Assembly: GCF_001661675.2 (NCBI RefSeq)
Contig: NZ_CP019602.1
Location: forward strand, 124,001 to 188,000
DNA: 64,000 nucleotides
Direction: 5' to 3'
Source: Croceicoccus marinus
Lineage (GTDB): Bacteria; Pseudomonadota; Alphaproteobacteria; Sphingomonadales; Sphingomonadaceae
Shown here piece by piece: positions 4,353-32,816 of this stretch (its first letter is position 1; each line of letters starts with the position of its first letter). The position numbers and the translations under genes were made by a program. Under the pieces are notes generated by a model, which was given only the letters and a program-made list of their open reading frames with translations, made no database searches and was not told the DNA's origin.

Positions 4353-5270
4353 ATGACTACCACCACTCCATCCACTTCCGTCAGTCCGCTGCGTCAGCGG
4401 ATGCAGCACGACATGATGATGCGCGGGCTCTCGCCCCGCACCCAGCGTCAGTATGTCCGCAACGTACAGCGCTTTGCAGCCTATCTCGGGCGCCCTCCCG
4501 ATACCGCCACGTCGGAAGACCTGCGCAATTTCCAGATCCACCAGCACGAGTGCGGCGCGAACGCCGGAACCATCAACAGCACCGTTTCGGCCTTGCGCTT
4601 CTTTTACACGGTCACCTTGCGGCGACGCGATCTTGCCCGCGGCCTTGTCGCCACACGCCGCCCGCACACGGTGCGTGAGGTGCTGAGCGTCGAAGAAGCC
4701 GCTCGACTGCTCGAGGCAGCGCCGGGGATTAAATATAAGGCCGCGCTGGGCGTCGCCTATGGCGCAGGCCTGCGGGTCTCGGAGGTCGCACACCTCAAGG
4801 TCGACGATATCGACAGCCAGCGGATGTTGATCCGCGTCGAGAACGGCAAGGGCGGGCGCGATCGCAATGCCATGCTTTCGCCGCCGCTGCTCGAACTGCT
4901 GCGGATATGGTGGCGCGAGGGCAAGCGACGCGGCGTCATGTTTCCGCATGGCTGGCTGTTCCCGGGGCGCAGCTACACCGATCCCATCTCGGCCCGGCAG
5001 TTGCACCGCGCTGTGCAGGAAGCCGCCGAGGTGGCCGGTATCAAGCGACGCATCAGCCCGCATACGCTGCGGCATAGTTTCGCCACGCATTTGCTCGAGC
5101 AGGATGTCGATATCCGCGTGATCCAGGTCCTGCTCGGCCATGCCAAGATCGACACGACCGCGATCTACACCAAGGTCTCGACCAAGACGATCCAGGCGGT
5201 GACCAGCCCGCTCGACCGGATCATCGCGCTGATGGAGGGCAAGGAACGAGCGGCATCGCCGCCCGGCTGA
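4353..5270 (+). CDS. Tyrosine-type recombinase/integrase of the IS91-type element
   Basis: The 305-residue protein is a compact XerC/D-like recombinase. A SAM-like N-terminal core-binding domain (about residues 10-95) precedes a catalytic domain. The catalytic set is visible: Arg in 'GAGLRVSEVAHLKVDD', Lys in 'ENGKGGRDR', the H-x-x-R box 'SPHTLRHSFATHL', His in 'LLGHAKIDTTAIYTKV' and the nucleophile Tyr in 'AIYTKV'. A GAGAGGA ribosome site precedes the ATG at 4353. It ends four bases before the IS91 transposase start, so the genes are coupled. In this element class the recombinase probably assists resolution or integration, but its exact role is not established. Confidence 0.92.
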   Translation: MTTTTPSTSVSPLRQRMQHDMMMRGLSPRTQRQYVRNVQRFAAYLGRPPDTATSEDLRNFQIHQHECGANAGTINSTVSALRFFYTVTLRRRDLARGLVATRRPHTVREVLSVEEAARLLEAAPGIKYKAALGVAYGAGLRVSEVAHLKVDDIDSQRMLIRVENGKGGRDRNAMLSPPLLELLRIWWREGKRRGVMFPHGWLFPGRSYTDPISARQLHRAVQEAAEVAGIKRRISPHTLRHSFATHLLEQDVDIRVIQVLLGHAKIDTTAIYTKVSTKTIQAVTSPLDRIIALMEGKERAASPPG

Positions 5271-5274
5271 GCCG

Positions 5275-6468
5275 GTGCACGCCGGCCTCGAGGTCGCCCA
5301 AATCTTTCGAAGCGCAGGTCCGGCCTATCGTGCCGCGCACGACGGGCATCTCGGCCTGATGCAGCTCAAGGTCATGACGGCGATCGAGAACTGCCGCACC
5401 GCCGCGCTGGGTGGTCATGTCGAGGCCTGCGAGGACTGCGGCCATTGGCGCGTCGCCTACAATTCCTGCCGCAACCGGCATTGCCCCAAGTGCCAGGGTG
5501 CCGCGGCGCGCGTCTGGCTGGCCGAACGCGAGGCCGACCTGCTGCCCGTCGGTTACTTCCACGTCGTATTCACGCTGCCTGCCGAGATTGCCGCCATTGC
5601 ATTCCAGAACAAGTCGCTGCTTTATGACCTGCTGTTCAAGGCGGCCTCGCAGACGATGCTGACGATCGCGGCAGATCCGAAGCATTTGGGCCCCCGTATC
5701 GGCATCACCGCTGTGCTCCACACATGGGGCTCGGCCATGACCCACCATCCGCACGTCCACATGATCGTGCCCGGCGGCGGCATCGCGCTCGATGGGACCC
5801 GCTGGATATCCTCGCGCCCCGCGTTTCTTCTACCGGTGCGCGTGCTCGACGCGCTGTTCCGCCGCCTCATTCTCACCGGCCTGCTGGCATTGTACGATGC
5901 CGGCCGGTTGTTCTTCGCCGGCAACATGGCCGCGCTGGAGCAGAGGCGCGCATTCCTGCGTCATATCGCGCCGGTGCGGAAGAAGCGCTGGGTCGTCTAT
6001 GCCAAGCCCCCGTTTGCCGGACCGCAGGCGGTGCTAGCCTATCTCTCGCGCTACACCCACCGCGTGGCGATCTCGAACCGGCGTCTCGTCGCCTTCGACG
6101 ACCGCGGGGTCACGCTGCGGTACAAGGATTATCGCCGCGACGGGCCCGAACGTCAGCGAGTCATGACGCTTCCTGCCGACGAGTTCATCCGCCGCTTCCT
6201 GCTCCATGTCCTGCCTCGCGGGTTCCATCGCATCCGCCATTACGGCCTGCTCGCCGGCTCCGCCCGCAAGGATGCCATCGCCCGGGCCCGCGCCTTGCTT
6301 CACGTCGCGCCCGAACCGCCGCCGTCCGACAACGTAGATCCCCCTGACCATCGCCCGCCATGCCCCTGCTGCGGCGGCCATATGATCGTCATCGAGACCT
6401 TCGCCCGTCGGCAGCAACCGCGCGCGCCGCCCCAAATCGTCGCGCTTACCCGGAGCCACGCGCCATGA
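5275..6468 (+). CDS. IS91-family (Y2/HUH) transposase
   Basis: The 397-residue protein begins with a GTG start directly after the recombinase stop. The N-terminal zinc-binding region has 'CEDCGHW' and 'CRNRHCPKCQ' (about residues 47-73), typical of IS91/IS801 transposases. The relaxase-like HUH motif is 'HHPHVHMIVPGGG' (about residues 158-170), and the segment 'YLSRYTHRVAISNRRL' contains the Tyr region used in strand transfer. A second Cys-rich motif (CPCCGG) is near the C-terminus. IS91 transposases cut single-stranded DNA and replicate the element by rolling circle, sometimes carrying adjacent DNA. The frame is intact, so the element could be active and might have mobilised its neighbours. 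Confidence 0.93.
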   Translation: MHAGLEVAQIFRSAGPAYRAAHDGHLGLMQLKVMTAIENCRTAALGGHVEACEDCGHWRVAYNSCRNRHCPKCQGAAARVWLAEREADLLPVGYFHVVFTLPAEIAAIAFQNKSLLYDLLFKAASQTMLTIAADPKHLGPRIGITAVLHTWGSAMTHHPHVHMIVPGGGIALDGTRWISSRPAFLLPVRVLDALFRRLILTGLLALYDAGRLFFAGNMAALEQRRAFLRHIAPVRKKRWVVYAKPPFAGPQAVLAYLSRYTHRVAISNRRLVAFDDRGVTLRYKDYRRDGPERQRVMTLPADEFIRRFLLHVLPRGFHRIRHYGLLAGSARKDAIARARALLHVAPEPPPSDNVDPPDHRPPCPCCGGHMIVIETFARRQQPRAPPQIVALTRSHAP

Positions 6469-7815: not shown

Positions 7816-8916
7816 CTAATCTAAGTAGCCATCCCGCTCTATCGCCTCTGTCAACCGCGCCGCCTTCTCCGGCGTGTCAACATAGGGCGACAGAATTGGC
7901 CGTTGCCCAAAGAGATGCCGCCAGGTCATTCGCAGATGGCCAGGCTCGAACTCCGCGTCGACATGCACCGTGGGCACGGTCGCGGCATATTGCCGAACCA
8001 AGTCGTCGCACGAGCGGTCCCGAGCGATATAGAGCCGATAGCCGAACTGGGCGACCGTCCGGTTGATCTTACGAACCTTCGCCTTGTCGCTCAACACACG
8101 ATGCCGCACAACGCTGTTCACAGGGCGAAGACGTGTCGATCCGCGAAGAACCATACCTGCATCGATCGGGAAAATGAACTCGATCTCTCCGCTTTCAGGG
8201 TAGGGCGTGCGGGCATGGGCTGATTGGTTCGGATCATAAAAGCAGACAGGATTGTCGGTAGTCAGGAACGGCGAGCCGGTCTTGTTATGGAGGACCTCGA
8301 AGCCCATGCGGAAGGCTAAATCGCCACTACCCACAATGTCCTCGAGCATATTGGCGAGGCTCTGCTCAGGATTGATGCCGACAGGGACGCGATCAAGCTT
8401 CCCAGCATATTCTGCTAGATTGGCGGGCAGCGCCCCGATCGCTTCTAAAGTCTGAATCTCCGCGCGCATCTTTTGTGCAAGGAGATATTCATGTCGTTCA
8501 CGCGCCGCCGGCACACGCGCCATCAGAATCGCAACCATGCCGAGTAGATTGAAGGAAATCGCCGGCGACAAGCGCTTCGCACGCGCGGCGGCGACAGTGA
8601 CAGGCCACACAGTCTCCACACGATTCCAATGATCTTCCCAAGACGTGTCATCACGACCGCCATCCTTGGATGGCAGCGAATAATATAGTTTGCGATACCC
8701 GATCGAGCCAGGCTGTGATGGCTGCGGATCATCAGGTTTGTCGTCAAAGTAAGCCCAGACTCGGCCGTCCGGGCCCGTGAAACCCGCCATATAGGTGATC
8801 GACAGATAGTGATGTTTGCGAAGCTTTCTCCCCGCCCCACCGCTACCGGCCTTGAGTTGGCTGAAAGGAACAACATCGCCATCGGTAGGGACTAGCCCCC
8901 AATTCCAACGAAACAT
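7816..8916 (-). CDS. DUF4238-domain protein
   Basis: A protein of 366 residues from ATG 8916, chosen because GAGG lies four bases upstream; ATG at 8937 is an alternative. It opens with the DUF4238 pattern 'KHHYLSITYMAGFTGPDG' (His-Tyr-Leu then Phe), and about two thirds of the way along has the characteristic 'SPFLTTDNPVCFYDP' segment. The biochemical function of DUF4238 is not known; such genes are frequent singletons in accessory and defence-rich regions. It follows the TIR-like effector gene by about 90 bp on the same strand, so it may be the last gene of that operon, or an independent passenger. Confidence 0.75.
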   Translation of the reverse strand: MFRWNWGLVPTDGDVVPFSQLKAGSGGAGRKLRKHHYLSITYMAGFTGPDGRVWAYFDDKPDDPQPSQPGSIGYRKLYYSLPSKDGGRDDTSWEDHWNRVETVWPVTVAAARAKRLSPAISFNLLGMVAILMARVPAARERHEYLLAQKMRAEIQTLEAIGALPANLAEYAGKLDRVPVGINPEQSLANMLEDIVGSGDLAFRMGFEVLHNKTGSPFLTTDNPVCFYDPNQSAHARTPYPESGEIEFIFPIDAGMVLRGSTRLRPVNSVVRHRVLSDKAKVRKINRTVAQFGYRLYIARDRSCDDLVRQYAATVPTVHVDAEFEPGHLRMTWRHLFGQRPILSPYVDTPEKAARLTEAIERDGYLD

Positions 8917-9008
8917 CGATCCTCGAGGAAAATGCATTTAGTTATCGACGTCCTTGAAATGGTCACCGGGTAGGCGCCGCCCAATGACCGGCGATTGACC
9001 TCGCCGTT

Positions 9009-9938
9009 CTAATTTTTCTCGATTAGCGAAGCGCGAACACCCATTTCCTCGATGATGGCACTGATCCGATCGATCACGGGGCCGAGCGCCACAGCCCTAG
9101 CACTAGCTTTGTCAGCAGTTGCGTAAGGAAGCGGCGTCAGACCCTTGAAGTCGGAGGGCAGTATCACATCGGTGCGTTGCGGCACCAGCAACAGAGTCCG
9201 ATGGCGGCCAAGGCGGGACATGAAAAAGCCGAGCTCGAAGATGACGTTGTCGCGCGGGACCTCCGATGTCTTGCCGCGGGCCGTGACGAGATCATCGGGC
9301 TCGCAGAGCGCAACGCCGAAGTCGGCAATGTTGACCTGCTCCTCGAGGGCTTCGATCGGATAGCCGCCGGCCGGAAAGATCATGTCGTCGCTCCAGATCT
9401 CAATGTCCGCATCGTGGGAAAGCCCGACGCGAATGGACTTTGCGATCGGTAGCGCCTCCGCAGAGCAGATCATGAACACCCGGGGGCGTATATTGGCACG
9501 GTTGACGAAGCGATTCCGCTGTTCGAGCCGCCCAGCAAGGTCCTGGGCGACGAGGCGCCACATCTCGGGATGCGCTTCGCCGACCTCGGCAAACTTCTCA
9601 TAGCCAACTTTCAACGTGACCACGTTCTCGACCGCTTCGATGGTCGCGGATCGGCCGACACTGGGATTTATGGCCGACATTTCGCCGATGGTGCAGGGTG
9701 GCTCGCGGTGATAGAGGCGCACCCCGTTGATGATGATCAGGCCTCGGCCGGACAGCAGAAAATGTACCGACCGATCGCTGCCACCTTGCTCGATGATATT
9801 CTTGCCCGCGGCGAATTCGACCAAGTCGCCGGCATCGGCAAAGGCCGCAGCGATCGTCTCGTTGCCGCGAATAATCTTCTGGCCGAGCAGCGCGTCGATC
9901 AACACTGCGCGATCCTCATATCGTTTCTTCAAGCTCAA
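9009..9938 (-). CDS. Pycsar-like effector: cyclic-nucleotide-binding domain fused to TIR-like domain
   Basis: About 309 residues from a TTG at 9938. I prefer this start because AGGAGG lies five bases upstream and the TTG overlaps the JAB stop as TTGA; an ATG at 9995 would add 19 residues. Domain order: a Crp-like cyclic-nucleotide-binding beta-roll (about 25-140; 'FAAGKNIIEQGGSDRSVHFLLSGRG', 'IGEMSAI') joined to a TIR-like nucleotide-binding domain (about 150-260). The latter has 'RVFMICSAEALPIAKSIR', 'IEIWSD' and the hallmark 'PRDNVIFELGFF' with its conserved Glu. There is no HTH, so it is not a Crp regulator. Known PycTIR effectors bind cyclic pyrimidine nucleotides and then degrade NAD+, killing the infected cell. 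The same activity is inferred here; the ligand is unknown. Confidence 0.88.
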   Translation of the reverse strand: MSLKKRYEDRAVLIDALLGQKIIRGNETIAAAFADAGDLVEFAAGKNIIEQGGSDRSVHFLLSGRGLIIINGVRLYHREPPCTIGEMSAINPSVGRSATIEAVENVVTLKVGYEKFAEVGEAHPEMWRLVAQDLAGRLEQRNRFVNRANIRPRVFMICSAEALPIAKSIRVGLSHDADIEIWSDDMIFPAGGYPIEALEEQVNIADFGVALCEPDDLVTARGKTSEVPRDNVIFELGFFMSRLGRHRTLLLVPQRTDVILPSDFKGLTPLPYATADKASARAVALGPVIDRISAIIEEMGVRASLIEKN

Positions 9939-10498
9939 TCGTTCCTCCTGTTGATGTCGTTCCTGCGCCACCAGCCTGACCGCGTCCAAGGCCATAGCGT
10001 AGGCCTGCCGGAAAGGGTCGGATCATCGGGCGGCCTCGGCTGAATGCGGATCTCGACCCGCGTCGGCGCCGATCCTGGCGTGAAGGCCGTTGCGCCAAGT
10101 TCGATGCGCTCGCCGCCGTCGAGGCGGATGATGAGCAGGACCGCGAACAACGGCGCGTCGGAACCGTCTTCTACGATCAGCTGCATCTGCGCCAGATCGG
10201 TAGTGCTCGGAACCGGCAGGTAGAGGGGATGGGAATGCCACTCGCCCAGATAGTTGAAACGCGCATAGTCGGCGCCGGTTCGGCGGAAGAAGCTCCGTAT
10301 GAAGCGACGATGCTTCTTGGGATGGCGAACGAAGCAGCTCTCGGTTCCGCCCGAACGCTGAACCGACAGACCAACCACGCGGAATTCTTCGTCGGCGACG
10401 TGCTCGCCCACAAGCACACCGCCAATTTCACGGGTGCCGGCGCGCGACAGCGCTTTTTCGAACTTCGCGATGAGATCAGGCGGTAGCGTTACGATCAT
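9935..10498 (-). CDS. JAB/JAMM-family isopeptidase (Cap3-like)
   Basis: The 187-residue protein has a complete JAMM zinc-protease signature: Glu24 in 'REIGGVLVGEH', then H88-S-H90 in 'GEWHSHPLYLPVPSTTD', with Ser98 and Asp101. Such enzymes remove ubiquitin-like or C-terminal conjugates; in type II CBASS the relative Cap3 reverses the attachment made by Cap2. The start overlaps the E2-E1 stop by 23 bases and follows an AAGGA site. Its stop overlaps the effector start. It therefore almost certainly acts as the deconjugating partner of the E2-E1 protein, here in a cyclase-based system rather than one with a CD-NTase. The C-terminal 20 residues are Trp/Arg-rich and not part of the core. Confidence 0.9.
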   Translation of the reverse strand: MIVTLPPDLIAKFEKALSRAGTREIGGVLVGEHVADEEFRVVGLSVQRSGGTESCFVRHPKKHRRFIRSFFRRTGADYARFNYLGEWHSHPLYLPVPSTTDLAQMQLIVEDGSDAPLFAVLLIIRLDGGERIELGATAFTPGSAPTRVEIRIQPRPPDDPTLSGRPTLWPWTRSGWWRRNDINRRND

Positions 10499-12179
10499 GA
10501 CGTTCCTTGATCAGGCGCTGCACGGTGGCCAAGCCTTCTGGATCCATTGCCGGCGTGGCTTCCGGCTCCGGTTGGCCGAGGTCGATCGGAAAGGTGTGGA
10601 ACGGCTGCAGGAAGAGCCATTCCGCCTTCAGCCCGATCAGATAAGCAGAGACGGGAAAAGCCGACTCGCCGGGCGACAGGAGCGTGTCGATAGCGAAGCG
10701 CGTGGCGTGCGCTGCGATCACGGCAACGTCGGCATCATCGGCGATCATCAGGCCATTCAAAGCGTCGATCCCGTACCCCGCGGTTGCGCGCGGTGCGACG
10801 ACGTTCTTCTCCGCGCACACCGCTTCGATCCGCGTTCGCGCGATTTGCGGCGCAGGATCGAGACCGGGCCGCGACCGGGCGATCATACCGCCGAACCCGC
10901 CACCATAAATCTCCAGCCACAGGAGCGGCTTCCGGGCTGCGGCGACAACCGACCCGAGCAAGTTAAACACGCGCGCATTGGCGGTTGCGTCGATGATCAG
11001 GTCACAGGTCTGCAAAAGCGCCAGCACGCCGTCGATGCTGCCGCTGCTCTCCTGTCCGGCGAGCTGCTGACGGCGCACGGTGCACTTGGCGGCCGGCGCG
11101 ATCATCTCGATTCGGCGCCTCAGCCCCTCAGCCTTGTGATCGCCGACCGCGTCCCAGTCGAGATCGTGCCGAACGAGATTTTCGGGAAGCATCACATCGT
11201 CATCGATAAACAGGAAATTGCCGACGCCGCTGCGGGCCAGGCTGGTTGCGATCTTGCCGCCAGCCGAGCCGCACCCGACAAGACCCACGGTCATGGTCCT
11301 AAGGGCCGCGCGAGATGGCTCCATGCGACCGCCGCCGTCCTCGGGAAGGCATTTGAATTCTGTGACGGTGTCGGTCCCGTCCTTCACCCAGAACAGACGG
11401 GCGACGCCATCTGCATGCACCAGGCACATATCCAGCACGTCAGAGACATAGCCCTCGGGATAGCTGCAGCCCGCTTCGGCCAGAGCCTTCTTCAACCCGG
11501 ACGCAGTTCCCTGCGCAGGAATCGGCATTCCGGCTGGTAGAATGGCGACATGCCCTTTCAGGGTCAGGCTAGACGCCTTCAGGGCTTCCGGAACCGTCGG
11601 GTCACGCCAAACAGGGTCTTCATCGCCGACAGTCAGCGGGATCACGACGTGCGTCGTCGAGCGCATCAAAAAGTCCATCGGGAGCAGTTGCGGGCCTGGC
11701 GTTGCATCGAGCTTGCTCGCAAGCGCCCGGGTCAGGACAAAGCCCACGGTCGAAGCGCGCAGTTGCTGACCCAGGCTTTCAACATGGCGCGATGGCAGGA
11801 CCGGATGCGCATCGGCATCATTCGGCGTCTCACCGTGCAATAGCCGGTAAGCACTCTCGACCATCTGGGCACCCGTGATGTCGGGCGTCCAATTGTCCGG
11901 GCCCCATTCGAGGCAAAGTTCGCCGCGCCCCCATTGGTGCTCCGACCAGCGCTCGGGGGATTGGGGAAGAACCGAGATCGGGGTGTAAGGAAATGTCTGC
12001 GGATATATCAGCCGGATCGGATAGCGCTTCGCGCCGATCTCGATTTCGGCATCGAAGCAAAGCCGGACCTGATCGTCGAAATACATGCTGGCGACGGTGA
12101 ACCAGGCCTCCCGCCCTTCAAGGTCGGCAAGGGCCGCCTGTTCGGATGTCAGGCGGCCCAGATCACGCATATACCACAT
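10476..12179 (-). CDS. E2-E1 fusion (Cap2-like ubiquitin-transfer protein)
   Basis: A 567-residue fusion. The N-terminal region (about 1-120) is an E2-like fold with a candidate catalytic Cys89 in 'GELCLEWGPDNW', the Cys-x-x-W/x-x-N-W pattern of Cap2 proteins. A linker domain (about 120-290) follows. The C-terminal ThiF/E1 domain (about 295-520) has the nucleotide-binding 'VGLVGCGSAGGKIA' loop, 'FLFIDDD' and 'ENLVRHDL', with a candidate E1 Cys455 in 'IEAVCAEKN'. Type II CBASS Cap2 adenylates the C-terminus of its CD-NTase and conjugates it to cellular targets, priming second-messenger synthesis. Here the start codon overlaps the cyclase stop (ATGA), so the cyclase is the expected substrate. 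That substitution is inference. Confidence 0.9.
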   Translation of the reverse strand: MWYMRDLGRLTSEQAALADLEGREAWFTVASMYFDDQVRLCFDAEIEIGAKRYPIRLIYPQTFPYTPISVLPQSPERWSEHQWGRGELCLEWGPDNWTPDITGAQMVESAYRLLHGETPNDADAHPVLPSRHVESLGQQLRASTVGFVLTRALASKLDATPGPQLLPMDFLMRSTTHVVIPLTVGDEDPVWRDPTVPEALKASSLTLKGHVAILPAGMPIPAQGTASGLKKALAEAGCSYPEGYVSDVLDMCLVHADGVARLFWVKDGTDTVTEFKCLPEDGGGRMEPSRAALRTMTVGLVGCGSAGGKIATSLARSGVGNFLFIDDDVMLPENLVRHDLDWDAVGDHKAEGLRRRIEMIAPAAKCTVRRQQLAGQESSGSIDGVLALLQTCDLIIDATANARVFNLLGSVVAAARKPLLWLEIYGGGFGGMIARSRPGLDPAPQIARTRIEAVCAEKNVVAPRATAGYGIDALNGLMIADDADVAVIAAHATRFAIDTLLSPGESAFPVSAYLIGLKAEWLFLQPFHTFPIDLGQPEPEATPAMDPEGLATVQRLIKERHDRNATA

Positions 12180-13750
12180 CAGGCGAAGCCTGCCGGCTTG
12201 GTCGGCGTGGCATCGCGGTTCGGAAAGCGGAAGGCGCTCGGTGCCGCAGCGGCCGGCGCGGCAATGACCGGCTCCAGAAGCGCCATCGACATCGCGGCCT
12301 TGGCGGCCGCAGCCGTCGCATCCCCTTCGTCAGCAAGCTCCTCGAGCGCCACCTCATAGGTCAGGCCTGAGCGCTTCCGGCTGGATCCGAAAATCTCCTG
12401 GCCAGCGTCGGAGCACCACCCATAAGCGACCGACCCGACCGCGGTCTCATCCCCCGCACACCGACGCTGCTCGTTCTCCGAAGCGAGGATGGCCCGTCCC
12501 GTTGCGCAGCGGATCATCGACCCCTTCATGCCCAGGCGCGTCAGTGCGACGGGACCAGCATCAAATCCGATTGCGATCCCTAGGCCGGCAACGTCGATGC
12601 CCTTGTCCTCGAGCAACTCCAAAGCGCGGTCGAAGCCGCTGCGCAGTCCGCCCGCGCACAGGATCGCCGCGCTTGCGCTCGCTTCGGTATCGGTGGTCTG
12701 CGCGGTACCTTCGCCGATGACACCGTGGACGCAGTCGCCGATGAACCGGATTTTGCGCCCCCCGAAATCCTCAGTGAGGACGGCGTCGAGTTCAGCGCGC
12801 AGCACATGTAGTGCCCGCACGACGTCCATTGCGTCATCGTCGTCATCGATATGGTCGGCAACATAAGCGGTGAAGCCGTCGATGTCCGCATAGATCGAGA
12901 TCGCGTCGTTGCGGCGCGAATTGCCGGGCGTCAGTACCTCCAGATCGAGATCGGCAAACGGCGGTGTATGCCCGCTAAACGAAAACTTGCCGATCGGATT
13001 GACTTCCAGGTCCTTTTTCCAATCCTGGACGATGCCATCGGCGGTCACGGCGAGCGCCGCTACCTCCTGGCTGTCGCCCACCTCGGTTGCGGTCAGCGCG
13101 CTGGCGTCTTCGTCATCCACTTCATCCAGATCAATGGCGCCGCGCGCTTCGTTGGACAGATAGATGCCGGTAGCCGTTCCACCCCCGGCGCGCTTGGCGG
13201 CATGGTTTGCGGGCACGCCCAGGAAGAGCGGCTCGGAACTGCCACGGCGGCCGTTCCGCACCGCCAGGGCCAGGCCCGTGTCAATGCCGACCCTGACCTT
13301 TGCCGATGGAATCTTCTCGTCACCATCCTCGCCGGTCTTGGCCAGGACATCCATAATCAGTTGGCCGATCGCTACCGCCTTGTGCACGCGCGCGGCCTCG
13401 TCGCCATACGGCTTGGCGACCACTAGGTGCAGCCGTTGATTGTGGAAATCGACCTGAATCGCATCCACCGCGGCAATGATCCGGTAGACGGCGCGATAAT
13501 GAAGGTTGAGAAAGCGAAAAGTCCGCTTGTGGCACGTCTCGCCTTCGACCTCGGTCGACTGCAGCATCTCGCCCAAGTTGAGAATGTCTACATAAACATG
13601 GACGCCCTCGACGCGATACGCCTTGTTCCGCGCGAGCCCATGCAGATCGGTATCGCGCACATAATCCTTGATCTCGACCGTCTCGACCTCCTTCAAGCGG
13701 GTTGCCACCCGCTTGTCGGTTGTCTCGATCTTCCACACCTTCTTCGCCAT
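12179..13750 (-). CDS. Tandem class III nucleotide cyclase (Pycsar-like), first gene of defence operon
   Basis: 523 residues from ATG 13750 (MAKKVWKI). Two class III cyclase homology domains are visible. The second (about 283-430) has both metal-binding Asp regions: 'YADIDGFTAY' (D289, D291) and 'RKIRFIGDCVHGV' (D339). The first (about 48-195) keeps 'VHVYVDILNLGEML' (D55) and 'VRVGIDTGLALA', but where the second Asp belongs it reads 'RLHLVVAK', so it looks non-catalytic. A low-complexity Ala/Pro tail (about 495-523) ends in KPAGFA. PycC-type cyclases make cCMP or cUMP after phage infection; which nucleotide this one makes cannot be read. The divergent promoter with paired palindromes lies just upstream. 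The tail is a plausible conjugation site for the E2-E1 protein. Confidence 0.88.
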   Translation of the reverse strand: MAKKVWKIETTDKRVATRLKEVETVEIKDYVRDTDLHGLARNKAYRVEGVHVYVDILNLGEMLQSTEVEGETCHKRTFRFLNLHYRAVYRIIAAVDAIQVDFHNQRLHLVVAKPYGDEAARVHKAVAIGQLIMDVLAKTGEDGDEKIPSAKVRVGIDTGLALAVRNGRRGSSEPLFLGVPANHAAKRAGGGTATGIYLSNEARGAIDLDEVDDEDASALTATEVGDSQEVAALAVTADGIVQDWKKDLEVNPIGKFSFSGHTPPFADLDLEVLTPGNSRRNDAISIYADIDGFTAYVADHIDDDDDAMDVVRALHVLRAELDAVLTEDFGGRKIRFIGDCVHGVIGEGTAQTTDTEASASAAILCAGGLRSGFDRALELLEDKGIDVAGLGIAIGFDAGPVALTRLGMKGSMIRCATGRAILASENEQRRCAGDETAVGSVAYGWCSDAGQEIFGSSRKRSGLTYEVALEELADEGDATAAAAKAAMSMALLEPVIAAPAAAAPSAFRFPNRDATPTKPAGFA

Positions 13751-13788
13751 GATATTGAAATCCCTGTTCCTTTTCCGCTCAAGGCAAT

Positions 13789-13854
13789 TTGCCAGCAGAT
13801 TTGTTGGTAATCTATAAGCCATGTTTTTCCGTTTGCCAACAAAATTGATGGCAG
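13789..13854. promoter_or_regulatory. Pair of similar imperfect palindromes in the divergent promoter
   Basis: Two 22-bp sites, 13789-13810 and 13833-13854, both start TTGCCA and carry a TGG near the other end (TGGTAA and TGGCAG). Each is an imperfect palindrome (18 and 16 of 22 positions symmetric) and they resemble one another. Their starts are 44 bp apart, about four helical turns. They lie between the cyclase start (13750) and the ATPase start (13896), so one regulator could control both directions. Confidence 0.5.
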
Positions 13855-13895
13855 CTAGGAGTCTGAAAGGTGTTGATCAGGGAGGAACGTCGACG

Positions 13896-16800
13896 ATGGC
13901 GTATAAATTCAATCCGGCCTTTCAGTCTGATGACGAGGCTGTATCGAATTTTATCGTTCGACAGCGCGAGCTCGCGGAAATCTTGACGATCCTGCGCGGC
14001 GAGACGGCAGTGCCCCGGGTCGTTCTGGTCGCGCCGCGAGGTGCTGGAAAAACGACCTTGTGCCGGCGTGTGCTGGCTGAAATCAGGGCCGATGAAACAC
14101 TGTACACATCCTGGCAGCCGATTTTCCTTGGCGAAGAAAGCTACACGGTCACCACGCCGGGCGAATTCTTCCTCGAATGTCTGTTTTATCTCGCCGACGA
14201 TGCCGGCGACGCGAGCCTCAAGGCCCTGCACCGCGAAGCCGTAGCAATCTCCGACGAGACGATCCTGCTGCAGCGCTGCCTGGAGATCTTGCACGACGTC
14301 GCGATAGCGACTGGCAAGCGACTGCTTGTGGTTGTCGAGAACTTCCACATGCTGCTGAACGATCAGATCGGCGGCGACCGTTCAACCCTTCTGACTGCCT
14401 TGGCCGACGAAACGCTCTTCGGCGTACTTGCAACTTCTGTTGCGCAATCGAGCGACGAGAGTTCGGGCCGCGCCCTCGAGGGCTACCGCATGCTGCCGCT
14501 TCGGCCGCTGACGCTTGAGGAATGCCATGCATTATGGGCCTACCTTACCATGCATGACGTGCCGCGCGCCCGCATCCGGCCCTTGCAGATTCTGACCGGC
14601 GGAAGTCCGCGACTAATCCATATTCTTGCGGATTTCATGCGCACGCCTTCGCTTGGCGATCTCATGGAAAACCTCAATCAGCTGATCGATCAGAACACCG
14701 AATATTTCAAAAGCCAGCTCGACATGCTCCCAGCAGTCGAGCGGAAGGTGTTCGCCGCACTGCTCGACGCATGGGATCCGAGCACCGCAAAGCAGATCGC
14801 GGAGGCAGCGCGGGTCAATGTGAACACGGCCTCCGCCATGCTTGGTCGGTTGAGCGACCGCGGTTCGGTGATCAAGGAGCAAGGTCGCGGACGATCGGCG
14901 CTATATTACGCCGCCGAGCGGCTGTTCAATATCTACTACCTGATGAGGCGGCGCAGCCATCCTTCGAGCCGGGTCCGCGCACTTGTCGCTTTCATGACCG
15001 AATATTACGATCGTGACGAACTGGTCGCGACGACAGCCAAACTCGTCGATGAAGCCTGCCGATTTGAGCCCGCCAAGCGGGCCGACTATCACTGGGCCTT
15101 CGACGCTATTTTGACGGGGCAGCCCGAGACGGTCCGCGCACGTATCCTCGCGCAGACGCCCGCTGATTTCCTCCAGTCGCTGCGTCAGGACGGTTTGCCG
15201 GCGGAAGTCGCGCCAAGCTTGATCGAAGCGGAATTCGACGAGAGCGACGGCGATGCCGCTGTTGACAGGCTTCTTCGCGAGGCACACGACGCGCTCGAGA
15301 GCGACGATACCGACCGGGCGAAGGCTTTGCTCGCTGATGCCGCCGCTATCTCCCCATCGAACCCGATGCCATTCATACAGTTGGCATTCACGCATCTTCA
15401 ACTCCACGAACATGAGGAATCCGTTCTGGCGGCCGAGCGCGTCGTGGAACAAGAGCCGGACAATCCCGGCACACATTCGATATACGGGCTGATGCTGTCG
15501 TTCGCCGACCAGACCGAGGAAGCCGAGGCGGCATTCAATCGCGCGTTGGAAATCGACCCCAGCTGCGCGCCGGCGATCCTTCATCTGGCGCGTTTGCGAG
15601 ATCGGAATGATGATGAAGATGGTGCGCTCTATTTGTATCGCAGGGCGGCTGCGCTCGGCGAGTTGACAGATGACGCGACCGCGCACTTTGCCAGAATCCT
15701 GATGCGTCAGGACAAGGAGGATGAAGCCGAGGCAGTGCTTCGTCAGGCGCTCGAGGATCATTCTGATCGTTCCGAAGCCAGGCACCTCTTGGCCAGCTTG
15801 CTGAGCGGAACCGGTCGTGCGCCAGAGGCGATAATGCTGCTCCGGGATGTGGCCGAGTACGGCGACGATTGGATGGCCTGGGCCGATCTCGGCGCCTTTC
15901 TCTCAGCCGAGGGAGAATTTGCCGAGGCCCGCGCTGCACTAGATCGGAGCATTGCGACCGGCGCCGATAGCCCTGTGATCTACCGGATGCTGGCAACTGC
16001 CATGCGCAATTTGGGCGAACCTTTCGAAGCGATTGCCAAGTTAGTCGACGCCATGCTGGAAAAGTATGCCGACGATGCCTGGGCATGGATTGCGGCCGGA
16101 GATATTTATAGCGCGAGCCGTCAGCGAGATCGCGCCGAGAAGGCCTATCGCCACGCCACGACCCTCGAGGATGGCGAGCCGGCCTGGGTCAGGCTGGCGC
16201 GCCTGCTGATGGAGAAATCGGCTTCGGATACCGAGGCGGAGTCGGCACTGCGGAAGGCCGTCGAGGCAGTTCTTGAAAGCGGTGCATGCGGTCCGATGCG
16301 CGAAGTTGCCGAGCTACTCGTCCATCATGGCGACGATGACGACGCGCTCGAATTGCTGAACGAGGCGCTTGCCGCAAATGAAGACTGCTATTGCAGTCTT
16401 GTACTCCAGGGGGACATCGCGGCCCGTCGGCATAACGAGGATGGTGCGCGCGAACATTTCGAAGCCGCCCTAGCCCTGAATGACATTGGCGTATCGGCGC
16501 TGACGGGACTCGCGCGTATCTCTGCGCCTTCCGAAGCGAAGGCATTGATTGGCCGGGCGATGGAGGCTGACCCCGACAATCCCAAATGCCTTTTAGCGCG
16601 TGCGCAGTTGACCGATCGCGAACTGCAGTTCCGGATCGAGGACGGCTCCGAAGCGCTCAAACGCGACCCGGATCTGACCGAGGCACGGCTATTTCTCGCG
16701 CCGCTCGAAGCCAAGCGTGGCGATATCCAGGCGGCAATCGGCCATCTCGGTGCCGCACTGCCGGAATTGGAGACGCGCCGTGAGCTCATTCCGAGCTTTG

Positions 16801-16997
16801 TCGACACAAGCCTGGAGCTTGCCCGTGCTGGCCTTAGTAATGAGTTGAGCGCACTGCTCGACTCCGAAGAAGGCCGGACAGTGGAGCCGCTCTCGATAGC
16901 GTTGAAGCTGGACCGAGGAGAAACGCCAGCTGTCGCCAAGGAAATTCGGGAAGTTGCGCTTGATATTCTGGATCAGCTTCACGCCAACGAACGATAG
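13896..16997 (+). CDS. AAA/STAND-like ATPase with winged helix and long TPR array
   Basis: About 1033 residues from ATG 13896 (MAYKFNPAF), preceded by GGAGGA; an upstream ATG at 13821 is less likely. Residues 15-250 form a P-loop ATPase: Walker A 'APRGAGKTTL' (about 46-55) and Walker B-like 'RLLVVVENFHMLL' (about 142-154). A winged-helix segment follows (about 295-345, 'AKQIAEAARVNVNTASAMLGRL'). From about 440 to 1000 there are many 34-residue TPR-like helical repeats ('PGTHSIYGLMLSFADQTEEAEAAFNRALEIDPSCAPA'). This architecture resembles STAND signalling ATPases that oligomerise on sensing a trigger. It is divergent from the cyclase operon and shares a 145-bp promoter region. It may be a sensor, a regulator or a separate defence gene; no effector domain is seen. 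Confidence 0.82.
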   Translation: MAYKFNPAFQSDDEAVSNFIVRQRELAEILTILRGETAVPRVVLVAPRGAGKTTLCRRVLAEIRADETLYTSWQPIFLGEESYTVTTPGEFFLECLFYLADDAGDASLKALHREAVAISDETILLQRCLEILHDVAIATGKRLLVVVENFHMLLNDQIGGDRSTLLTALADETLFGVLATSVAQSSDESSGRALEGYRMLPLRPLTLEECHALWAYLTMHDVPRARIRPLQILTGGSPRLIHILADFMRTPSLGDLMENLNQLIDQNTEYFKSQLDMLPAVERKVFAALLDAWDPSTAKQIAEAARVNVNTASAMLGRLSDRGSVIKEQGRGRSALYYAAERLFNIYYLMRRRSHPSSRVRALVAFMTEYYDRDELVATTAKLVDEACRFEPAKRADYHWAFDAILTGQPETVRARILAQTPADFLQSLRQDGLPAEVAPSLIEAEFDESDGDAAVDRLLREAHDALESDDTDRAKALLADAAAISPSNPMPFIQLAFTHLQLHEHEESVLAAERVVEQEPDNPGTHSIYGLMLSFADQTEEAEAAFNRALEIDPSCAPAILHLARLRDRNDDEDGALYLYRRAAALGELTDDATAHFARILMRQDKEDEAEAVLRQALEDHSDRSEARHLLASLLSGTGRAPEAIMLLRDVAEYGDDWMAWADLGAFLSAEGEFAEARAALDRSIATGADSPVIYRMLATAMRNLGEPFEAIAKLVDAMLEKYADDAWAWIAAGDIYSASRQRDRAEKAYRHATTLEDGEPAWVRLARLLMEKSASDTEAESALRKAVEAVLESGACGPMREVAELLVHHGDDDDALELLNEALAANEDCYCSLVLQGDIAARRHNEDGAREHFEAALALNDIGVSALTGLARISAPSEAKALIGRAMEADPDNPKCLLARAQLTDRELQFRIEDGSEALKRDPDLTEARLFLAPLEAKRGDIQAAIGHLGAALPELETRRELIPSFVDTSLELARAGLSNELSALLDSEEGRTVEPLSIALKLDRGETPAVAKEIREVALDILDQLHANER

Positions 16998-17054
16998 CCG
17001 GCGCCTTCGCTGAGAGGGTAGTCGTCTGGTCGAAATAGGGTGCGTTGAACGCGG

Positions 17055-17762
17055 TTACGGCGTCCACTCGTAATTTGAGCGGTAGACGTCTTCGTCCACG
17101 CCAGCGAACTTCATGCTTCGCTTTTCCCACATATTCACCCCTTTGCTAAGCTTCGCTTCGTCCAACATTGCGTCATACACTGCGGCCGAGATGAAGGTGC
17201 AGTAGGGATATTCCCGATTATCGGAGAGCTTCGCGGCGAAGCTTGGTGGGCGGCCGATCCAAATGAGATCGTTGTTGTTGCGGATGCCCGCGCGAACCGC
17301 TCTGGAGATTCCGACATCGATGCCGCACGCTTGCCGGATCTTCACGTCATTATTCTTTACCGAGTTAAACCGGGCTGTCGCCTTTCTCTGAATCAGATTT
17401 TCAGTAGCCCACTGAATTTTCAGGGCAGCCTTCACTGCGTCCGTTCGCTTCCTATCGCCGATAAACACACCCATCACGCGATCACCATCGAAGCTTCGTA
17501 TCTCACCTCCTTGCGCTCTGATGATGCGTACCGAGCAGTCCAGATAGGCGCGGATGATTTTCGCCGTGGTGTCCCAGGGACAAAGCTTTGCGATGACGCC
17601 CGATCCCGCGAGATCGGCATAGAGGAAAGCGGCATCCAGCTTCACGGCTCCGTTCGACAGGGCGATGTCGTCCGACGTCGGTATTTTCTTGCCCTCGCGT
17701 TCCTCGAACGCCGTTCCAAGGGTGCCGTCGACGGCATCCGTGAGATCGTCTTTCAATGCCAT
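17055..17762 (-). CDS. pycC: Pycsar nucleotide cyclase (PycC)
   Basis: The 235-residue single-domain class III cyclase matches compact PycC enzymes. The metal-binding residues are D50 in 'AAFLYADLAGSG' and D94 in 'GGEIRSFDGDRVMGVFIGD'. The later 'CGIDVGISRAVRAGIRNNNDLIWIGRPPSFAAKLS' region is typical of the PycC nucleotide site. PycC makes cCMP or cUMP when phage infects the cell; the product here cannot be decided. The gene follows the membrane effector by four bases and is translationally coupled to it. It converges with the AAA-TPR gene across a 57-bp gap. Compact size and its own effector mark this as a separate Pycsar operon from the tandem-cyclase operon nearby. Confidence 0.88.
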   Translation of the reverse strand: MALKDDLTDAVDGTLGTAFEEREGKKIPTSDDIALSNGAVKLDAAFLYADLAGSGVIAKLCPWDTTAKIIRAYLDCSVRIIRAQGGEIRSFDGDRVMGVFIGDRKRTDAVKAALKIQWATENLIQRKATARFNSVKNNDVKIRQACGIDVGISRAVRAGIRNNNDLIWIGRPPSFAAKLSDNREYPYCTFISAAVYDAMLDEAKLSKGVNMWEKRSMKFAGVDEDVYRSNYEWTP

Positions 17763-17766
17763 GGGA

Positions 17767-18270
17767 TTACCCGCGAATCATTGGTATCCGACTATGTTCG
17801 ATTGCCGTCATCACCAGAAAGATCGCAAAAGGCAGGAAGGTCGCCAGCGTAATACGGATTGCGACAGCAATGGCCCGGTATTTCTCGCACAGAATGTGGG
17901 AATTGCGCCAGACTTGGCCAATCATGTCAGAGCGATAGTCCGCCTCGCTAACCGCTTCGAACTCGTCCTTGAATTTGGTTTCCGTGCGGTCTCGGATTGC
18001 GGCGAAATAGATCAGGCTGCCCTGGCCGCCCTCAAGATCAGGAAAGTTGCACCGATAGAGAAATGTGTAGGACCCGACTAAGCCAAGGACCAGAAAAACA
18101 GCGGGAATGGCGATGTACCATTGTTTGAGATCGCCAGCTTGCACATTGAGCGCGCTGATCGTCAGCACAGCTGAGTTGACGGTGAAGAGCCCGCCGACCT
18201 TGGTGTCAACGCGGGGAAAGAAGCTCAAGACGCGCGTCAACTGCGCATCAATGACGTTAAGATCTTTCAT
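17767..18270 (-). CDS. pycTM: Pycsar membrane effector (PycTM)
   Basis: 167 residues from ATG 18270, chosen because GGAGGGG lies five bases upstream; a longer frame begins at 18363. Hydrophobic segments occur at about 28-45, 51-72 and 142-160, separated by a soluble loop ('FKDEFEAVSEADYRSDMIGQVWRNSHI') like that of Pycsar TM effectors. These proteins bind the cyclic nucleotide made by PycC and disrupt the inner membrane, aborting infection. The stop lies four bases before the pycC start. The order effector-then-cyclase differs from some known Pycsar operons but the pairing is clear. No nuclease or TIR domain is present. Confidence 0.85.
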   Translation of the reverse strand: MKDLNVIDAQLTRVLSFFPRVDTKVGGLFTVNSAVLTISALNVQAGDLKQWYIAIPAVFLVLGLVGSYTFLYRCNFPDLEGGQGSLIYFAAIRDRTETKFKDEFEAVSEADYRSDMIGQVWRNSHILCEKYRAIAVAIRITLATFLPFAIFLVMTAIEHSRIPMIRG

Positions 18271-18745
18271 GCCGCCCCTCCAATGGGAAAGGGTACCAAT
18301 ATCCGCCGACGCCGCAAAGCATATTGTCTGGGCGCTACTTGGACGACGAGCGGTGAAGAGCAAACTGTGAAAAGGTGTGAGCGAACGACCGCTTGCGGGA
18401 TCACGAGCGAGGTCGTCAAACGGCGGAAACTGGGGCGCTGTGTTGCTGCCGCCATAGGCGGGCGGAAATGTCGGCTTTCCCCGATTCCATCCCCATAAGC
18501 GGACTTTCCGGAGTGTCCGACAGAGCGGTCGACCCGGTTCAACTAATTCTCCGTCGGCCTTTGCTCCTTTGGACGTTGACGGAAAATCTCCAAAACCGGG
18601 CGTGATGGAGGTTCATCGTCGCGGCCGAGGGAAGGTGCCAACTAATTCGGAGAGTAGAGGGTGCAAGTTGTCGGCGAACCCTATTGGGTCGAATTTTCCT
18701 CTCCCAATCCCAGTCTGTTTCCGCTATGTTCCAAGGATTAGCCGG
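18271..18745. other. Intergenic region between the Pycsar pair and the tra region
   Basis: About 475 bp without a recognisable gene; short frames on both strands have no family resemblance. It must hold the promoter of the PycTM-PycC operon at its left end. An imperfect inverted repeat at 18463-18511 (GGAAATGTCGGCTTTCC ... AAGCGGACTTTCC) resembles dispersed intergenic repeats I have seen in sphingomonads. Confidence 0.4.
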
Positions 18746-18976
18746 ATGAACGCCCTCATGCCCAACTTCGATCTTGATCCCAGAAACAAGCCTCGCGGCG
18801 AGGAATGGCAGGGATTTGCCGAGGTCGACGAGGCCATCCGCGAAAACCGCCTCATGGAATATCGCTTTCGCAAGTCCTGGGCCGATCCCTGGGGCCGCAA
18901 GCTTACGATAGCCGGCGTGCTGGTGATTGTCGCAGTGTTTGCGTACCTGATTGGGTCGTCCCTGCGGATATTTTAA
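18746..18976 (+). CDS. Small single-pass membrane protein, convergent with traG
   Basis: 76 residues from ATG 18746, with AAGGA upstream. The N-terminal half is charged and soluble (MNALMPNFDLDPRNKPRGEE...), and residues about 51-72 form one hydrophobic helix ('LTIAGVLVIVAVFAYLIGSSL'), so a short cytoplasmic head with a C-terminal anchor is likely. I do not recognise the family. It sits 10 bp from the end of traG in the opposite orientation. It might be linked to conjugation, for example entry exclusion, but nothing in the sequence shows that. Confidence 0.6.
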   Translation: MNALMPNFDLDPRNKPRGEEWQGFAEVDEAIRENRLMEYRFRKSWADPWGRKLTIAGVLVIVAVFAYLIGSSLRIF

Positions 18977-18986
18977 GCCGCACCCC

Positions 18987-21689
18987 CTACCACTTCTTCA
19001 CGTCATCCGCGGCATCGGCGCTGGCCCCGCGAGCCTCTTTCGTGGATTGCTGTAGCGCATCGCGAACCTTGCCGACACGTCCATTCCCGTCGGATTGCAC
19101 GCGGCCTACTTCGTTCTGAATTGGCTCAATGTTTGGGGCGTACGGCACCGATCGTCCAGCGCTGCCGACTGTTGCGCGAGAGCGCACATCTGCCGCACCA
19201 GACACGTTCGGTCGCGCAACGGCTGAACCGGATTTCAGCACAAGCTGATCCTCTATATTGTCGCGCAGGACATCGGCATAGTTGTCGATAAAGCGGGCCT
19301 GCAGTGCCTGGCCTTCGCTGCCGAGCTGGAACGCAACGTCGTCGAAGCGCGCATTGCCGTAGAAGTCGCGGTTGCGGTCGATCTCCGCCATCCCCCATTC
19401 GCGATAGGCCTGAGACAGGTTGAGCGTGCCCGAGGCGCTGTTGCTGTCGAAGAGCGAGGCCTGCTGTTCGAGCCGATTGGCGATTTCTTCCGATCGCCGT
19501 GCTTCCCTCGTGTAGCTCTGGGCTTCGGTCAGCGATGCATTCATTCCGCTTGCGGACGTGGAAACGGCCGAACTAGACTCCGTCCCGACGGTGCGAACAA
19601 AGCCGTCGCGCGTGCTGGTCCAGTTCCGGCTATCGGAAATCTGGCGCAGGCTGCCCAATATCCGCGACCGGTCTTCCGAGGCGATCCCGATATCGCTGTC
19701 GGACCAGGTCTTTGTTCCGCCGCCTTTGGCGCCCGCCTTCGCAGACAAGACCCCGTTCGAAACGCCGGCATTGGCTCCGGCCTCGCCGCCCAAAAACCAC
19801 GCTGTCGTGATATCGTCGGCCGCCCGCCGCGATAGCCCGAACTGCCGCTGGAGCGCGAGCGAGGCCTGATCGACCTCAGAAAAGGCGGTCTGGATGCTGT
19901 CGGAATTCGACTGGCCGGTGGCGGTCTCGAAGCCATGCCCCTGACTGTACTGGTCGCGCAGTTCGCGAAATCGCGAGACGGCACTGCTGGTCGATTGCGC
20001 GGCGATATTGGCGAGGCTTTCGGAATTCGCGCGGGCTTCGCTCGCCATGGTGGCAAGCCGGCTCGAGACTTCCTGGCCGACCGAGGGCGTGAACGGATAG
20101 CTCGAATTCGGGAGCTGGTCGTAGCTGGCCTCGGGATAGCTGGTCTCGATCGAACCACTGGCGCTGACGGTGCGGGTCTGCGCCGCGCCATAGCCGAAGG
20201 ACGGCGCAACGGTCCCTTGCGCGAACTGGCGGGTGAGGACGTTCGAATTCTCGAAGCTCGTATTGCCCAAGGCGACATTGCCGGTGCTGGCCTCGCGGGC
20301 GGCTTCCTCGGCTGCGTTCTGGCTGGGGCCCAGATAGCTTGTCGCCTGGTGCGAGATCGCCATCGCGCCGCGGGCGACGCCACCGGCAAGAAACGGAACC
20401 GAAGCGATGAGGTAACCGGCAAGAATGCCGATGTCATTGTTGACGTCGGCCATGCCGGTAAAGCTGGCCAGCGTCAGGCCGTTCGATCCCGCAACCGCGC
20501 TCATGTCGGCGGCCCCCTTGGCCATCAGCATCATGTGGAGGATGACGAAGAGCGGCCCCCAGGCGGCAAGGTAGAAGAAGCCGGTGACGTAGCCCTTGAG
20601 CGCAACCGGCCCCGAGCGCGGCATCAGGAACAGCGGGAAGAGAACGGGGAAGAGCGCGTAGAACAGGACGGTCAGGACCACGTTCAGAAGCGGCACCCAT
20701 TTCATGGCATTACTGGCGATCGAGGAATAGGTGCGCTCGGTCTGGATATCGGCGCGGGTCTGGGCATAGACATCGACGCTGCCGGCGCCGCTCGCCCCCG
20801 ACATCGAATGCATCGCGCTTTCCATCGCGTTGATGGTCAGCGTCTGCTGGAAAATCTTGGTCGCATTGGCCGAGACGCCGGCGAGATACTGGTAGGCGAT
20901 GGGCAGATCAGCAAAGAGCTTGGCCTTGGCGAGCGCCGCGGTCTGGTTGGGATAGAGCTGGCGCCCGAAGACACTGCCCATGTCATCGATCAGTCCAGCC
21001 CATTGCGCGGAAAGCGCATCATAGGCCTCGCGGCAGGTGACGATGTCCGAAGTGACCATGCCGCTGCCACTGTCGCGTACGAGAAAGCGCTGCGCGCGGG
21101 CCTGGCTGCCCGGCGCTATCGTCGCCCAGATATCGCTGCTTTCAGCGAGGTCCTTCATCGACATGCGGCCGAGCAGCACGTCGTAGAACACGCATTGCTT
21201 GAAATGCTCGTCGAGATTGGCGGCAAATTCCGGATCGGAAATCCGCAAGGATCGCGTCGCATCGTAAAGCCGTGCGCCATAGATCATGCCGTTCTTCGAA
21301 TAGTCGAGATCGCCGGGAAGGCCGAAGACGACTTCGGCGGAGCCGGTGAGATAGTCGCCGACCTGGCTGGTAAAACTCGCCATGAGCGCGAGTCCCAGCG
21401 GCACATTGGCAACTTCTGCCGGCGCTAGGCCCGGGTTCAGCCGGTCGGTCACATGGACGTCGAGGCGCGGGACCATCAGGCACGAATAGATGAGCGTTGC
21501 GCCCAAAAACCAGTTGATCCAGGCGCGCCAGTCCTGGTTGAAGGCGAGGGTGAGGGCGGAAAGGCCCAGCCCCATGACCATGACAACCTGGATCAGGCTC
21601 TTGTAGCCGCCGTTCCCGGTCCAGGCGGCAACGGCCTGGAAGGTGCTGACGAGATAGTCGCCGCCGCCGATAGTGAAGATCTCGACCAT
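18987..21689 (-). CDS. traG: TraG, mating-pair stabilisation/assembly protein of F-type T4SS
   Basis: The 900-residue protein matches the length of F TraG (about 940). The N-terminal 450 residues carry several membrane helices ('SLIQVVMVMGLGLSALTLAF', 'VPLLNVVLTVLFYALFPVLFPLFL'), and the remainder is a long, Ser/Ala/Gln-rich periplasmic region typical of TraG C-termini. In F, the N-terminal part is needed for pilus assembly and the C-terminal part for mating-pair stabilisation and entry exclusion. It is the last gene of the tra operon here and follows traH by 12 bp. The C-terminal region is likely fast-evolving. Confidence 0.92.
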   Translation of the reverse strand: MVEIFTIGGGDYLVSTFQAVAAWTGNGGYKSLIQVVMVMGLGLSALTLAFNQDWRAWINWFLGATLIYSCLMVPRLDVHVTDRLNPGLAPAEVANVPLGLALMASFTSQVGDYLTGSAEVVFGLPGDLDYSKNGMIYGARLYDATRSLRISDPEFAANLDEHFKQCVFYDVLLGRMSMKDLAESSDIWATIAPGSQARAQRFLVRDSGSGMVTSDIVTCREAYDALSAQWAGLIDDMGSVFGRQLYPNQTAALAKAKLFADLPIAYQYLAGVSANATKIFQQTLTINAMESAMHSMSGASGAGSVDVYAQTRADIQTERTYSSIASNAMKWVPLLNVVLTVLFYALFPVLFPLFLMPRSGPVALKGYVTGFFYLAAWGPLFVILHMMLMAKGAADMSAVAGSNGLTLASFTGMADVNNDIGILAGYLIASVPFLAGGVARGAMAISHQATSYLGPSQNAAEEAAREASTGNVALGNTSFENSNVLTRQFAQGTVAPSFGYGAAQTRTVSASGSIETSYPEASYDQLPNSSYPFTPSVGQEVSSRLATMASEARANSESLANIAAQSTSSAVSRFRELRDQYSQGHGFETATGQSNSDSIQTAFSEVDQASLALQRQFGLSRRAADDITTAWFLGGEAGANAGVSNGVLSAKAGAKGGGTKTWSDSDIGIASEDRSRILGSLRQISDSRNWTSTRDGFVRTVGTESSSAVSTSASGMNASLTEAQSYTREARRSEEIANRLEQQASLFDSNSASGTLNLSQAYREWGMAEIDRNRDFYGNARFDDVAFQLGSEGQALQARFIDNYADVLRDNIEDQLVLKSGSAVARPNVSGAADVRSRATVGSAGRSVPYAPNIEPIQNEVGRVQSDGNGRVGKVRDALQQSTKEARGASADAADDVKKW

Positions 21690-21701
21690 GGGGAAATCCG
21701 A

Positions 21702-29499: not shown

Positions 29500-29514
29500 G
29501 GGCTTATTGGTCCT

Positions 29515-32804: not shown

Positions 32805-32816
32805 GGGTTTGGCTCC

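Follow-up and report, generated by a model that had tools for sequence, protein, structure and literature searches.

Pycsar anti-phage systems are described as a cyclase with a receptor, and those of clade A are defined by two consecutive class III cyclase domains in the cyclase PycC (PMC11224242). In type II cyclic oligonucleotide-based anti-phage signaling systems (CBASS), Cap2 joins the C-terminal Gly or Ala of the cyclase to target proteins and Cap3 reverses the reaction, according to PMC10097602 and PMC11153139. Gly or Ala is the last residue of cyclases encoded with full Cap2/Cap3, and no such conservation is reported for other architectures (PMC10097602). Here, a 64,000-nucleotide (nt) stretch of Croceicoccus marinus DNA (NZ_CP019602.1, assembly GCF_001661675.2, positions 124,001 to 188,000 of the forward strand; hereafter the window, whose positions serve as coordinates) was found to carry four overlapping minus-strand genes for a clade A PycC, an E2-E1 fusion, a JAB isopeptidase and a PycTIR effector, all present in the reading frames called by an initial annotation. 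That annotation had proposed that conjugation and release machinery of the CBASS type controls a Pycsar cyclase, and the proposal is supported by the conserved linkage of the genes and by a cyclase C-terminal tail that matches the conjugation module. It is quite likely that the locus is a clade A Pycsar anti-phage operon regulated by type II CBASS-style conjugation, with PycC acting as its own ubiquitin-like modifier.

The window operon is Pycsar by its cyclase and effector and resembles type II CBASS by its module, gene order and tail. With clade A Pycsar, represented by the Pseudomonas aeruginosa PycC of PDB 6yii, it shares a two-domain class III cyclase and an effector in which a cyclic-nucleotide-binding domain with the cyclic UMP (cUMP)-contact residues is joined to a TIR domain. 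Whereas Pycsar as described consists of cyclase and receptor, the window operon adds E2-E1 and JAB, and the P. aeruginosa cyclase identical to 6yii has a lone E2 behind it where the window has E2-E1. With type II CBASS the operon shares the order cyclase, E2-E1, JAB, the E2-E1 family PDLC00855 and a GFA/GFG tail, and the E2-E1 proteins of type II CBASS and Pycsar loci are 28 to 40% identical. However, the type II CBASS synthase is a CD-NTase, and that of the window is a class III cyclase, from which a cyclic mononucleotide is expected; the operon is therefore not CBASS. Short type II CBASS (a CD-NTase with a lone E2) differs from the window in architecture and cyclase fold and parallels the E2-only Pycsar operons: in both, the cyclase is followed by a lone E2, and the tails are alike in [KR]P followed by an aromatic residue or His. 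The Bil and Bub ubiquitin-like systems have E1 and E2 domains, as the window does (BubCD is matched), and JAB-type release enzymes. They also encode a ubiquitin-like modifier, whereas none was found among the nine window open reading frames (ORFs) scanned (at least 80 aa), and that role seems to fall to the cyclase tail. The excerpts of literature searched, with the founding Pycsar paper (Tal 2021) outside the search, contain no statement linking Pycsar with E2, E1 or JAB. The proteins themselves have already been seen by curators, as the Pfam models E2-ntca, E2-Crich and E2-E1mid and the PADLOC E2 and E1-E2 models attest.

PycC (12179 to 13750, minus strand) is a 523-aa protein with two class III cyclase domains, matching PADLOC PDLC00762 (8.4e-215) and Pfam Guanylate_cyc, and its closest solved structure by sequence is PDB 6yii_A (phmmer, 5.2e-171). 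A longer ORF of 547 aa opens at 13822, and the ATG at 13750, which is shared with most relatives, is most likely the start. The residues D289 and D339 picked out in the initial annotation (523-aa numbering; D313 and D363 in the longer ORF) are the class III metal-site Asp pair, and each is invariant in 84/84 relatives. The messenger synthase thus belongs to the class III cyclases, and no CD-NTase model was matched in the nine ORFs from 7816 to 23150 covered by the Pfam and PADLOC scans. The AlphaFold2 model of the 523-aa protein (mean predicted local distance difference test score [pLDDT], 88.6) contains secondary structure with two cyclase-like halves and is confident up to about residue 490. 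Over residues 491 to 523 (12182 to 12280, minus strand) the pLDDT falls below 50, indicating predicted disorder; this segment, ending in FRFPNRDATPTKPAGFA, is the proposed conjugation tail.

The cyclase stop and the start of the E2-E1 gene overlap in TGATG, the 3' end of the E2-E1 gene overlaps the JAB start by 23 nt, and the JAB stop overlaps the TTG start of the TIR gene in TTGA. The Cap2-like E2-E1 fusion (10476 to 12179, minus strand; 567 aa) matches PADLOC E1-E2 PDLC00855 (3.4e-200) and the Pfam families E2-E1mid (5.3e-36) and ThiF (3.1e-20), and both the E2 Cys89 and the E1 nucleotide loop GCGSAGG at residue 302 are found where they had been named. Cys89 is invariant among 44/44 aligned family members, as is each of the E1 residues G302, G304, G307, D326, R337, K349 and D393, whose roles we take to be those of the corresponding residues in the ThiF/MoeB family. 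The predicted model (mean pLDDT, 82; predicted template modeling score, 0.63) has Enterobacter cloacae Cap2 (7to3_A) as its top PDB match in Foldseek (E value, 8.2e-24; 603 columns, nearly the full length), and BubCD structures are matched as well. With a second aligner, VIA-align, the matches, among them MoeB, ThiF and UBA5, cover the E1 domain alone; the E2 half is identified by its motif together with two full-length matches, one to the PADLOC model and a loose one to Cap2 in Foldseek. A search of phage records with E2-E1 yielded one weak match, in an unannotated record and confined to residues 300 to 362, where the E1 nucleotide loop lies.

The Cap3-like JAB/JAMM isopeptidase (9935 to 10498, minus strand; 187 aa) matches PADLOC JAB (2e-65) and Pfam Prok-JAB (2.9e-12) and contains E24, H88, H90 and D101 as previously listed. 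The effector gene (9009 to 9938, minus strand) has a TTG start with AGGAGG upstream, and a longer ORF opens at 9995. Its product matches PADLOC PycTIR (1e-101), the Pfam families CAP12-PCTIR_TIR and cNMP_binding and PDB 8jsj (1.2e-43). The cyclic-nucleotide-binding and TIR domains assigned to it earlier are thus borne out, but the protein is of the known PycTIR type and not merely TIR-like. When the cUMP contacts of PsPycTIR (PMC11224242) are mapped onto it, six residues are kept (G86, E87, R97, S98, R138 and N143) and the seventh position, A89 in PsPycTIR, is Ser; the conserved contacts suggest that cUMP is probably the ligand.

Clade A cyclases are almost always encoded next to a conjugation enzyme. 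When species genomes were scanned with a clade A cyclase alignment, 170 stretches were confirmed, and in 79 of the best 80 loci, which were used for the linkage counts, an E2 (46 loci) or E2-E1 (33 loci) lies directly 3' of the cyclase; the remaining cyclase (L046) is cut off by the end of its contig. The plasmid records agree (16/16 opened, out of 28 with a cyclase match; 12 with a lone E2 and 4 with E2-E1). Among 398 sampled genomes, three encode Pfam E2-ntca, in each case beside a clade A cyclase. The linkage spans many Pseudomonadota families and one Acidobacteria contig from a metagenome-assembled genome (MAG). The survey of homologs had been named beforehand as a possible source of refutation, and it found the association to be conserved. 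At the lone-E2 loci, the Pfam domains E2-ntca and E2-Crich were found in 6/6 tested, as two separate genes in one of them (L009). A P. aeruginosa plasmid locus (L005) encodes a PycC identical to 6yii_A over all 514 residues, and directly after pycC lies a 257-aa ORF with a TTG start (8536 to 9309 of that record, plus strand) for an E2 with a cysteine-rich domain, which is missing from the gene table and has close copies in four other loci (L012, L013, L069 and L070).

After redundancy was removed, 84 cyclases were compared, 36 with E2-E1 (the window included) and 48 with a lone E2. Left out of the counts were L001 (the window itself as a surveyed locus), L017 (a cut piece of the L008 plasmid cyclase), L008 and L046 (both with a cyclase truncated where the record stops) and, among 97 complete cyclases, 13 that were at least 97% identical. 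A JAB gene accompanies 34/36 of the E2-E1-linked cyclases (33/35 without the window), and a TIR effector lies within 9 kb in 28/35 of the nonwindow E2-E1 cases and 43/48 of the lone-E2 cases; no effector match was within reach in 5/35 and 4/48 rows, respectively, some of them through contig ends. Neighbors were classed by phmmer at an E value of 1e-4, at which weak TM and TIR matches are approximate. One Xanthomonas plasmid (L018, 4933 to 5852, minus strand) is annotated with separate genes for the binding domain and the TIR domain of the effector. The four-gene order of the window, which the initial annotation had suggested searching for, is common but not universal, since the TIR gene lies within 4.5 kb downstream on the strand of the cyclase in 17 of the 35 E2-E1 cases, lies on the opposite strand in 9 and was not seen in 9. 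Uniqueness of the gene set to this locus was considered and rejected, given the 36 nonredundant cyclases with E2-E1.

If the Pycsar E2-E1 acts on PycC, a Gly/Ala-type PycC end would be expected only beside E2-E1. The cyclase ends in GF[AGS] in 35/36 cases with E2-E1 and in 0/48 with a lone E2, and the tail of the window cyclase, ...PTKPAGFA, is of this kind. When the GF tails are right aligned, G and F at positions -3 and -2 are invariant in 35/35 and the last residue is Ala in 29 and Ser in 6, so that the last three residues are nearly fixed while most neighboring positions vary. Among the lone-E2 cyclases, 42/48 have xP[HYF] near the end and the other six have a diverged [RK][AS]H form; a looser pattern embracing both forms is found in 48/48 lone-E2 and 0/36 E2-E1 cyclases. 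A last residue of A or G taken alone gives a weaker contrast (30/36 with E2-E1 versus 7/48 with lone E2). Within the same operons, no other protein ends in GF[AGS] (JAB, 0/33; TIR, 0/33; E2-E1, 0/34). In the protein database, 117 of 120 tails end in GF[AS] and the other three in GYA, but these are the best 120 of 1,379 matches and lean to the clade of the window, and they were therefore not used as a test. The single E2-E1-linked cyclase without the GF end is that of an Agrobacterium plasmid (L011, 8571 to 10376, plus strand), which ends in TRHA and stands beside an E2-E1 of another family, PADLOC PDLC00836. The L011 locus has no JAB match and is adjoined by an AAA/TPR-like protein, and it is read as a separate acquisition.

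The same correspondence is seen on an unrelated synthase fold. A PDLC00855 search added six genomes from a sample of 398, one from a sample of 385 and none from one of 369, and in 7/7 of these CBASS loci a CD-NTase precedes the PDLC00855-family E2-E1 and a JAB gene follows. All seven CD-NTases end in GFA or GFG, and most have an FPN-like block and prolines before the end (FPN..P..P), as illustrated by the CD-NTase tail FPNTRREPTSPKGFA set against FPNRDATPTKPAGFA of the window cyclase. Where the partner is a lone E2, 8/8 CD-NTases (two genome and six plasmid loci) terminate in [KR]P[WH] followed by two to four residues. The lone-E2 CBASS matches came from 10 distinct records, 7 of which were opened, and one (L127) has a transposase in the place of the CD-NTase. 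All 15 CD-NTases were confirmed by Pfam CD-NTase domains, those of the seven E2-E1 loci by SMODS or DncV-like. In both synthase folds, the type of tail, as read from the sequences, thus tracks the conjugation module and not the cyclase fold. In the E2-E1 tree, the CBASS and Pycsar groups meet at deep forks without resolution, and the tree gives no direction of transfer.

Several observations weigh against this interpretation. The cyclase tree shows only three changes of module (a clade of 34, L096 and L011), and the tail changed with the module in two of them and stayed unchanged in L011. With so few changes an independent-pair test is underpowered and the Pycsar data alone are not significant given descent; the argument therefore rests mainly on the cross-fold replicate, for which CBASS supplies few tails (7 and 8). 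The Fisher value for tail against module (6.8e-23) treats rows as independent and is no true probability. Six of the E2-E1-linked cyclases end in Ser, and Ser in place of Gly abolished conjugation of the Escherichia coli cGAS (PMC10097602). As a rigid body, E2-E1 fits Cap2 7to3_A loosely (TM score, 0.46; root mean square deviation, 11.6). The candidate E1 catalytic cysteine, C455, is an uncertain site whose 30-residue stretch contains a Cys in 22/44 family members, which suggests that some members pass the cyclase directly to the E2 cysteine.

Since the tail follows the module, E2-E1 most likely joins the cyclase's own C terminus to targets and JAB releases it. This goes a step beyond covalent tagging, in that the cyclase would most likely itself be conjugated through its C terminus instead of just being a protein that receives a tag. 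Upon infection, PycC would make a cyclic pyrimidine, probably cUMP, which would bind PycTIR and lead to NAD+ loss and abortive infection, presumably protecting against phage. E2-E1 would adenylate the C-terminal Ala of PycC, carry PycC as a thioester on Cys89 of the E2 and join it to lysines of target proteins, JAB would cut it off again, and conjugation would set the amount of messenger that PycC makes. In E. coli CBASS, conjugation is reported to raise messenger output (PMC10097602), and by analogy priming is the more likely direction for PycC. Conjugation might conversely restrain the cyclase, with PycC parked on a host protein until JAB frees it on infection. Parking on PspA followed by release has been proposed for a Bacillus type II CBASS cyclase (PMC11153139), and the frequent presence of JAB (34/36) suits such a scheme; the present sequence data do not separate it from priming, and with the E. 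coli result pointing the other way we regard restraint as possible but doubtful.

Apart from the direction of its effect, conjugation of PycC itself may be weighed against accounts in which the cyclase is not the substrate. In one, the E2-E1/JAB pair tags another protein (of phage or host, or PycTIR) with an unseen ubiquitin-like modifier in the manner of Bil or Bub, and the cyclase is a mere neighbor. The Foldseek matches to BubCD are in keeping with this, but the nine ORFs scanned gave no match to a ubiquitin-like family, the cyclase bears the module-specific tail and its partners TIR, JAB and E2-E1 do not, and the cyclase is linked to E2 or E2-E1 in 79/80 loci, which together make this account improbable. 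In another, the shared GFA tails reflect chance or descent within one clade and are unrelated to conjugation. Descent alone could keep the tail, as a single clade holds 34 of the 35 cyclases with a GF tail, but 7/7 CD-NTases, of unrelated fold and next to E2-E1 of this family, have the same ending, as does the cyclase of L096, which is placed separately, and the ending is held nearly fixed amid variable neighbors; we give this account little credence. Coincidental clustering of two separate defense modules in a defense island, to which the second Pycsar pair and DUF4238 gene of the region might point, is very improbable given the overlapping reading frames and the near-universal linkage across families, and chance colocation was rejected on the survey of 80 loci.

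The operon of PycC, E2-E1, JAB and PycTIR is adjoined by further genes. A divergent gene (13821 to 16997, plus strand) encodes a 1,058-aa AAA/TPR protein with Pfam TPR and AAA domains, and beyond it lies a second Pycsar pair consisting of a small, 235-aa cyclase (17055 to 17762, minus strand; PADLOC PycC PDLC00766, 5.3e-91) and a PycTM effector (17767 to 18363, minus strand; Pfam PycTM, 1.8e-14; PADLOC PycTM, 1.4e-44). The seven genes form a block that is found again, complete, in L019, L020, L021 and a Sphingobium baderi plasmid (L008 and L017), with the AAA/TPR gene in the same position in L019, L020, L021 and L008 as part of the traveling block. In 10/35 E2-E1 loci and 19/48 lone-E2 loci (including L010, L015, L016, L018, L074 to L076, L080, L081, L091, L092 and L094), a small Pycsar cyclase is found no more than 9 kb from the clade A operon. 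It is often accompanied by a TIR or TM effector of its own, and paired Pycsar systems may be a recurring theme. Just downstream of the operon, a DUF4238 protein is encoded (7816 to 8937, minus strand), with a weak match to the PADLOC DUF4238 model (E value, 0.012). F-type conjugation genes (TraG, TraH, TraF, TraU, TraC and TrbI-like) occupy 18987 to 35350 on the minus strand, and an IS91-type transposase with an integrase lies at 4353 to 6468 on the plus strand; with these flanking genes, the region is probably on a mobile element.

On balance, cyclase conjugation appears to be a portable control layer, in which a GF[A/G/S] end is read by E2-E1 with JAB and a [K/R]-P-aromatic/His end is processed by a lone E2, both occurring on CD-NTases and on Pycsar cyclases of class III, and virtually all clade A cyclases would use one of the two. 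If the same tails are indeed shared by a second cyclase family of unrelated structure, what is controlled is the joining through the tail, and one cyclase fold can stand in for another. Work on clade A Pycsar that considers the cyclase and effector alone would miss the regulator, as in the case of the E2 that lies unannotated behind the 6yii cyclase.

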